Below, piece by piece: positions 9,058 to 40,716 of a stretch of DNA of 64,000 bases. The position numbers and the translations under genes are program-made. Origin of the DNA: Solirubrobacter phytolaccae (GTDB lineage Bacteria > Actinomycetota > Thermoleophilia > Solirubrobacterales > Solirubrobacteraceae); NCBI RefSeq assembly GCF_027587195.1, contig NZ_JAPDDP010000040.1, positions 1 to 64,000 on the forward strand, in the 5' to 3' direction. How positions within the stretch are numbered: the stretch's first letter is position 1; every line of letters begins with the position of its first letter. The notes beneath the pieces were generated by a model. That model was not told where the DNA came from. It searched no databases and saw only the letters and a program-made list of their open reading frames with translations.

Positions 9058-9843
9058 TCATGCGGCGACGGCTCGCGGGTAGGCGTGGCGGAGGAAGGCG
9101 AGCGCCTCGGGGTCGTCGCTGATGCCGAACACCGTCGGGCCGGAGCCGGTGACCATCGGCTGCTCGGCACCGACGTCGCGCAGCGCCTGCAGCGCGCGGT
9201 CGATCAGCGGGCACAGCCGCCGCGCGGCGGGCTCGAGGTCGTTGACCGGCTCGAACACACCGTGCCGGAGCGCCTCCGCGGCAGCCGCGAGCTCATCGGG
9301 CGTGCGCGGCGTGTCGTGGGCGTCGAACTCGCGGTAGACCTCGCCCGCGCCCAGTGCCGCGTCGATCGGCAGGATGATCAGCGGCGGCTTGGCGCCCGGC
9401 AGCGGCTCCACGAGCTCGCCCGCCCCGGTCATCAGCGCGCGCTCGCCGCGCAGCATCACGGTCACGTCCGCCCCGAGCCGCATCGGCACGTCGTCCGGAA
9501 CGGGGAGGCCGGAGGCCTGGCTGATCAGCCGCAGCGCGGCGGCGGCGTCGCTCGACCCGCCCGCCATGCCCGCGGCGATCGGAATGCGCTTGGTGATCTC
9601 GATCCGCAGCGGCGGCCCGTCCCACCCGGTCGCGGCCCGGAACTCCCGCAGCGCCCGCAGCGCGAGATTCTCGCCGTCCACGCCCGCGCAGACGACCTCG
9701 TCCGAACCTAAAGGCCCTGGGTCTTTAAGTTCGAGGGTGTCGGCCAGGTCGGTCGGCTGGACGAGTGAGACGAGCGGGTGCAGGCCGTCGGGGCGGGGCG
9801 CGCCGACCAGCAGGCAGAGGTTGACCTTGCCCGGCGCCCTCAC
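9058..9843 (-). CDS. ispE: 4-diphosphocytidyl-2-C-methyl-D-erythritol kinase
   Basis: 261-residue GHMP kinase of the MEP isoprenoid pathway, phosphorylating CDP-ME at the 2-hydroxyl. Seen: N-terminal APGKVNLCLLVGAPRPDGLH with the family's K-x-N-L signature, the ATP-binding PIAAGMAGGSSDAAAALR near residue 95, and a C-terminal MVTGSGPTVFG. Its ATG overlaps the rsmA stop (ATGA), making it the last gene of metG-tatD-rsmA-ispE. Oddity: residues 37-47 (LELKDPGPLGS) are encoded by a 31-bp AT-rich palindrome (9703-9733) using CTT, AAA, CCA, CCT, TTA and GGT, unlike the G/C-ending codons around it. Confidence 0.93.
   Translation of the reverse strand: MRAPGKVNLCLLVGAPRPDGLHPLVSLVQPTDLADTLELKDPGPLGSDEVVCAGVDGENLALRALREFRAATGWDGPPLRIEITKRIPIAAGMAGGSSDAAAALRLISQASGLPVPDDVPMRLGADVTVMLRGERALMTGAGELVEPLPGAKPPLIILPIDAALGAGEVYREFDAHDTPRTPDELAAAAEALRHGVFEPVNDLEPAARRLCPLIDRALQALRDVGAEQPMVTGSGPTVFGISDDPEALAFLRHAYPRAVAA
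9703..9733. repeat. palindromic element embedded in the ispE frame
   Basis: Arms CGAACCTAAAGGCCC (9703-9717) and GGGTCTTTAAGTTCG (9719-9733) pair at 13 of 15 positions around a single central T. The 23-bp core from TAAAGG to AAGTT matches 40694-40716 at 20 of 23 positions. It encodes ispE residues 37-47 in frame. Confidence 0.7.
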
Positions 9844-40114: not shown

Positions 40115-40669
40115 ATGACGTCGCCCCTCACCAGCAGTCCCACTGACATCGCGCTCGCCAACTTCGAGCTCATCACCGCCGAGTCGGTCACGCTCGCCGA
40201 CGCCGAGCGGGTCGTCTCACCCGACCACGTCAACCACGAGGCCCACAACGAGCCGCTGGAGTGCCGAGCGCGCGGCCCGCGCGGGCTGCTCGCCACCCGC
40301 GCCTGGCTGCGCGCGGCCTTCTCGCGCTTCGAGATCGAGCCGCTGGACGTCGTGACCGACGGCGAGCTCGTCGCCTTCCGGTGCGCGGTGACCGTCCACC
40401 ACACGGGCGACTTCGCGTTCTTCGACCCGGCCGGCCGGGTCAAGGACGCCTTCCCGCCGACGGGGCGCGAGGCGACGATCTTCCAGTCGCACTGGTTCAC
40501 CATCCGCGACGGCCTCGCGCTCGAGCACCGGGCGGTGCGCGACGACCTCGGCATGGCGGTCCAGCTCGGCTGGGTCCCGCCCAAGCCGCCGTACCTCGTC
40601 GGCATGGCGCTGGCCAAGCGCCGCACCCAGCGCGCGGTCGACCGCGGCACGGCGCCGTGGCAGGCCTGA
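40115..40669 (+). CDS. SnoaL-like polyketide-cyclase-family protein
   Basis: 184 residues of the NTF2/SnoaL fold: NFELITAESVTLADAERVVS, VNHEAHNE, the F-x-x-F-E-I-E-P strand and HWFTIRDGLALEHRAVRDDL. Such proteins are small-molecule isomerases, hydrolases or orphan binding proteins. ATG 40115 is chosen; a TTG three codons upstream is possible. The stop codon abuts the palindrome cluster 40669-40716. Confidence 0.8.
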   Translation: MTSPLTSSPTDIALANFELITAESVTLADAERVVSPDHVNHEAHNEPLECRARGPRGLLATRAWLRAAFSRFEIEPLDVVTDGELVAFRCAVTVHHTGDFAFFDPAGRVKDAFPPTGREATIFQSHWFTIRDGLALEHRAVRDDLGMAVQLGWVPPKPPYLVGMALAKRRTQRAVDRGTAPWQA

Positions 40670-40695
40670 ACTTAAACGTCCAGGACGTTTAAGTT
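40669..40695. repeat. perfect 13-bp palindrome, AT-rich
   Basis: AACTTAAACGTCC (40669-40681), one central A, then GGACGTTTAAGTT (40683-40695). Located between convergent genes; it could also act as a terminator. Confidence 0.75.
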
Positions 40696-40716
40696 AAGGC
40701 CTTGGGTCTTTAGGTT
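40691..40716. repeat. second copy of the ispE palindromic element
   Basis: AAGTTAAGGCC...GGTCTTTAGGTT is an imperfect palindrome. It matches 9709-9731 at 20 of 23 positions and overlaps the stop codon of the NmrA-like gene and the right arm of the preceding palindrome. Confidence 0.7.

Follow-up and report, generated by a model that had tools for sequence, protein, structure and literature searches.

Genes for REP-associated tyrosine transposases (RAYTs, also TnpA_REP) are flanked by repetitive extragenic palindromes (REPs), and REP abundance tracks these genes (PMC2817692). One subclass of tnpA_REP carries REPs in frame inside the transposase gene itself, and some subclasses lack the GT(A/G)G head (PMC6006769). 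Intragenic REPs are known within other open reading frames as well, and in two species of Xanthomonas the recB gene contains them at roughly matching sites (PMC3733652). Orthologous RAYTs associated with different REP classes have been termed an "orthoswitch," the mechanism of which is, according to its authors, only speculative (PMC3686654). The present study concerns a palindrome that is translated as part of ispE in the soil bacterium Solirubrobacter phytolaccae, within a stretch of 64,000 nucleotides (positions 1 to 64,000 of NZ_JAPDDP010000040.1, hereafter the window) that belongs to contig C104 in a draft genome of 7.74 Mb. Our analyses make it very probable that this palindrome belongs to a Solirubrobacter family of non-autonomous, REP-type repeats that a resident RAYT/TnpA_REP has spread. 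They also suggest that the cores of such repeats have been replaced in place, coding genes included.

The Solirubrobacter repeats share with described REP/RAYT systems (PMC2817692, PMC6006769) palindromes that are short and dispersed, an HUH/Y1 gene in single copy situated between palindromes, one core for each RAYT branch, an abundance that follows the RAYT, and copies near gene ends that provide stop codons. They differ in that the palindromes are nearly perfect, of the form TAAA..TTTA with an odd central A or T, and lack the GT(A/G)G head of the canonical GTAG class. Moreover, the host belongs to the Actinomycetota, and many copies are translated. The open-licence literature yielded nothing relevant on Solirubrobacter palindromes or on the peptide KGSDPF.

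The gene and the palindrome within it are as follows.

9058..9843, minus strand: ispE (4-diphosphocytidyl-2-C-methyl-D-erythritol kinase), host gene, 261 amino acids; NCBIfam match, the sole ispE match in the genome
9703..9733, minus strand: REP-like palindrome of the GGCCC core family, translated in frame as residues 37-47 of IspE

A preliminary description of this DNA, made from the sequence alone, had reported a 31-bp imperfect palindrome in frame within ispE, and both its sequence, CGAACCTAAAGGCCCTGGGTCTTTAAGTTCG, and its reading frame are confirmed. The palindrome is translated as L-E-L-K-D-P-G-P-L-G-S and includes one TTA codon. Shuffled windows give an expectation of zero matches to its core pattern, and the only other occurrence of the core in the window is at 40692-40714, with three mismatches. 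As single-stranded DNA, the element is predicted to form a hairpin on both strands (z -2.4 and -2.6).

The further copies that the preliminary description anticipated are plentiful. The genome contains 87 TAAAG..CTTTA palindromes (1 with a reversed-pattern control), 75 CCTGG-centred palindromes (control, 0), and 39 palindromes with other cores (control, 0); the distinct TAAA..TTTA copies number 114. The four main core families are GGCCC (48 copies), GAGGGAC (28), CGTCC (25), and GGGGTC (11), and core families are of unequal length (19, 21, and 23 bp). Identical imperfect variants recur, namely GGCCCTGGGTC 13 times, GGCCCTGGGGC 10 times, and GGACCTGGGGC 9 times, which fits copying rather than separate mutation. 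Most copies of this dispersed, high-copy-number repeat lie outside genes, with about 21 in coding frames. Across 61 genomes of the family, the four Solirubrobacter genomes sampled contain 35-87 TAAAG palindromes, whereas every other genome contains 0-7; here and below, the genomes compared are drafts, and sites were sampled from fetched stretches.

Two genes matching Y1_Tnp (PF01797) are present in the genome, each flanked by two palindromes.

C149:21207-21530: RAYT gene, between two GGCCC-family palindromes
C4:13803-14129: RAYT gene, between two GAGGGAC palindromes

RAYT sequences contain the HUH motif (GNHVHL) and the catalytic tyrosine (Y..NPV), and the sole NCBIfam match of the four RAYTs tested is the REP-associated tyrosine transposase family (NF047646; E 1e-15 to 1e-21). 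The single RAYT of G012, the nearest relative, is likewise flanked by two copies, both of the CGTCC type, and the palindromes of that genome are mostly CGTCC; for some relatives, one palindrome was found. RAYTs accompanied by GAGGGAC and GGGGTC palindromes occur in G033 and G048, both S. deserti-like, and also in G063. S. deserti genomes contain GAGGGAC and GGGGTC cores and essentially no CCTGG-type palindromes, and G061, which has no RAYT, yielded no CCTGG-type copies. Each relative's RAYT adjoins palindromes of one core, the branches of the RAYT tree agree with the cores, and the palindrome cores of a given genome largely match its RAYTs. The palindrome downstream of the C149 RAYT encodes the end of the protein itself. 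At the three loci where this arrangement was observed, L013 (C149), L185 (G012:C1:2721885), and L012 (C4), the C-termini read LLKGPGPLSFAA, VKRPGRLSWGA, and LPKEGQSLFKK, respectively; thus, the end of the protein changes with the core.

Comparison of homologous sites points to turnover of the cores. For 24 of all 51 CCTGG-type sites in G012, the corresponding position in S. phytolaccae is also occupied by a palindrome, against about 0.1 expected by chance according to our own estimate, and the core is the same in 9 of these and different in 15. Across four species, the RAYT locus itself can be aligned for more than 3 kb at 79-84% identity, with GGCCC, CGTCC, GGGGTC, and GGGGTC palindromes. When orthologues of 20 in-gene loci were taken from G012, G033, and G063 and aligned, a relative proved to have, in the same position, a palindrome with a different core at about 11 loci, and in the linker at L123 four species have four different cores of equal length. 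Because shared sites and the orthologous RAYT locus, with three cores in four species, differ in this way, the cores appear to have been replaced in place. In the orthoswitch (PMC3686654), orthologous RAYT loci are similarly found with different REP classes in related strains; there, however, old copies are assumed to remain and decay as new ones spread, whereas here the dispersed copies differ at the very same places. In-frame REPs in unrelated genes are shared with the Xanthomonas case (PMC3733652), which differs from the same-seat, different-core occupancy seen here at about 11 genes plus intergenic sites. No description of in-place replacement of dispersed REP copies on such a scale was found in the open-licence literature, itself weak evidence.

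We infer mobilisation by the RAYT from its association with the repeats. RAYT/TnpA_REP proteins are HUH enzymes thought to act on single-stranded hairpins, and the enzyme would cut the folded hairpin and then move it. The IspE loop would tolerate the resulting ten-residue peptide with function kept, and new copies would come to replace old ones in the same seat. A new copy might insert next to an old one or within it, the old one then being lost; alternatively, the RAYT might exchange copies, or gene conversion might act between them. It is conceivable, and we put it forward tentatively, that the switch of a RAYT to another cognate palindrome entails in-place rewriting of the dispersed copies to that core, those inside genes included, so that a transposase-driven process would alter amino acids in unrelated proteins, IspE among them, in parallel with its own specificity.

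Shared places need not imply replacement, since different REP families could have inserted independently into a small number of tolerant loops and gene ends. The sites do fall in loops, linkers, and gene ends, the palindrome is missing from some relatives, and some shared copies are offset in position or arranged in tandem. However, independent insertion accounts poorly for the excess of coinciding sites over random expectation and for the precision with which many coincide: in 20 of 31 different-core pairs (the L149 versus G063 pair, a point variant, being excluded), at least one boundary is identical to the base, above the 10-15% or so expected from scatter within a loop, although this null is a rough estimate and the offsets depend on the BLAST flank ends. 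We therefore regard independent insertion as unlikely. A second alternative is that the copies were inherited vertically and that the cores changed by compensatory point mutation, with symmetry held by selection for hairpin function. The GGCCC and CGTCC cores are only two base pairs apart, and lengths are equal at several sites, both of which would suit such a history. The recurrence of the three imperfect variants in identical form, the swapping at one site of core families that differ in length, and changes extending into the outer arms argue against it, and this explanation seems improbable to us.

The preliminary description had likened the element to the Rickettsia palindromic elements (RPEs), which have no transposase of their own. 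Its view of a mobile palindrome translated in frame stands, and in-frame copies in about 20 unrelated genes correspond to what is known of RPEs in unrelated proteins. The assignment to that family does not stand: because cognate RAYT genes with matching palindromes exist, it was rejected, and we consider it very improbable. In addition, genes contain only a minority of the copies, and the CGTC end reported for RPE-4 and RPE-6 (PMC3733652) is missing from the ispE copy. The palindrome might instead be a transcription terminator, a protein-binding site, or a product of chance, and hairpins between convergent genes, such as that at 40669-40716, could terminate transcription. Yet with none expected by chance, 114 copies with cores matched to RAYTs, and copies within coding genes, we give this explanation almost no credence.

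Several observations weigh against a RAYT-mobilised REP. No copy has been seen moving. The RAYTs score 57-77 bits on NF047646, just under the curated cut-off of 80, and for the RAYTs of some relatives no second palindrome was found upstream. For the CGTCC and GGGGTC copies of S. phytolaccae, the draft assembly contains no cognate RAYT; these copies may be remnants left by a RAYT of earlier specificity or by a gene since lost. Outside the genus, five genomes match Y1_Tnp yet contain few or no such palindromes, and a GT(A/G)G head is found neither next to the ispE copy nor in the element alignments inspected.

The host gene itself provides a view of how such a repeat is accommodated. The NCBIfam IspE match spans nearly the whole protein, with a score under the curated cut-offs. 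Because this is the genome's sole ispE match and, in comparison with family members, retains the invariant IspE motifs, the gene with its palindrome is probably functional. The ispE genes of S. deserti and S. soli lack the palindrome, which passes the check that the preliminary description had set for orthologues. They carry 21 bp at the site and encode 7 residues (TTSPGER; SLEPADF) where S. phytolaccae has 10 (ELKDPGPLGS). A clean 30-bp insertion is thereby ruled out: relative to the palindrome-free genes, the net change is just +9 bp. The expected variability of the matching loop is borne out, its length differing across an alignment of 22 family members. In an AlphaFold2 model of IspE (mean predicted local distance difference test score 91.7), residues 41-48 connect the strands 36-40 and 49-52, and by this model the palindrome peptide is a surface loop, the variable hairpin loop of IspE.

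Palindromes at the ispE site are present in S. phytolaccae, in G012, and in S. taibaiensis. The S. taibaiensis copy has a GGGGCC core, its centre coincides exactly with that of the S. phytolaccae palindrome, and the corresponding stretch of G063 is identical to that of S. taibaiensis. In G012, outer arms like those of S. phytolaccae enclose a GGGGTC core. A reading of this copy as a second, nested palindrome was toned down because most GGGGTC copies in S. phytolaccae (L002, L003, L005, L028, L040, L139, and L147) are double-armed and about 49 bp long, with the form AACCTAAAGCAACCTAAAGGGGTC-A-mirror; the G012 copy may be one such long-form element. The double-armed copies, and the G012 ispE copy likewise, look as if one palindrome occupied the centre of another.

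Elsewhere in the window, two abutting palindromes of different core take up the whole gap between convergent genes.

40669..40695, no strand assigned: complete CGTCC-core palindrome (AACTTAAACGTCCAGGACGTTTAAGTT), between convergent genes
40696..40716, no strand assigned: degenerate GGCCC-family copy adjoining the CGTCC palindrome; provides the stop codon of the minus-strand gene

The close copy that the preliminary description had placed at 40691-40716 is thus real and intergenic but makes up the degenerate half of a tandem in which two core types are joined. Genome-wide, six complete pairs of copies lie within 150 bp of each other (0.27 expected), four of the six being of different core, and in two more (window 40669-40716; L045) a different core is joined to a degenerate partner. 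Apparent partial CGTCC copies next to GGGGTC copies are outer arms and were excluded from the heterotypic pairs. Adjacent pairs of this kind could be intermediates of replacement.

By two codon-usage screens, 16 and 12 copies fall in coding frames free of stops, the union being about 21; 20 loci were compared with relatives. L098 was left out for its ambiguous frame. The host genes include a chorismate-binding/aminotransferase fusion, BTAD regulators, an acyl-CoA thioesterase, a glycosyltransferase, an EamA transporter, and an alpha/beta hydrolase. As most of a bacterial genome is coding, random placement would put far more copies inside genes than are observed, and selection presumably removes most in-gene copies. 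In paralogous and orthologous BTAD-domain regulators, many core types occur in one linker before the LLGRE motif (L017 and L018, at C11:19110 and C11:21901, with L202, L208, L226, L240, and L216). Several in-gene GAGGGAC-type copies (L022, L148, L149, L150, and L201) adjoin a second short palindrome, GCGACANNTGTCGC, an arrangement that suggests a longer composite element.

The core differences described here bear on the turnover of REP classes, and thus on the orthoswitch, whose mechanism has been a matter of speculation (PMC3686654). At dozens of orthologous places, closely related species have different cores between flanks that can still be aligned, so that insertion and loss, exchange, gene conversion, and independent insertion can be distinguished by comparing more strains. 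Furthermore, in this genus of actinomycetes, palindromes modify loops of ordinary proteins, IspE included.
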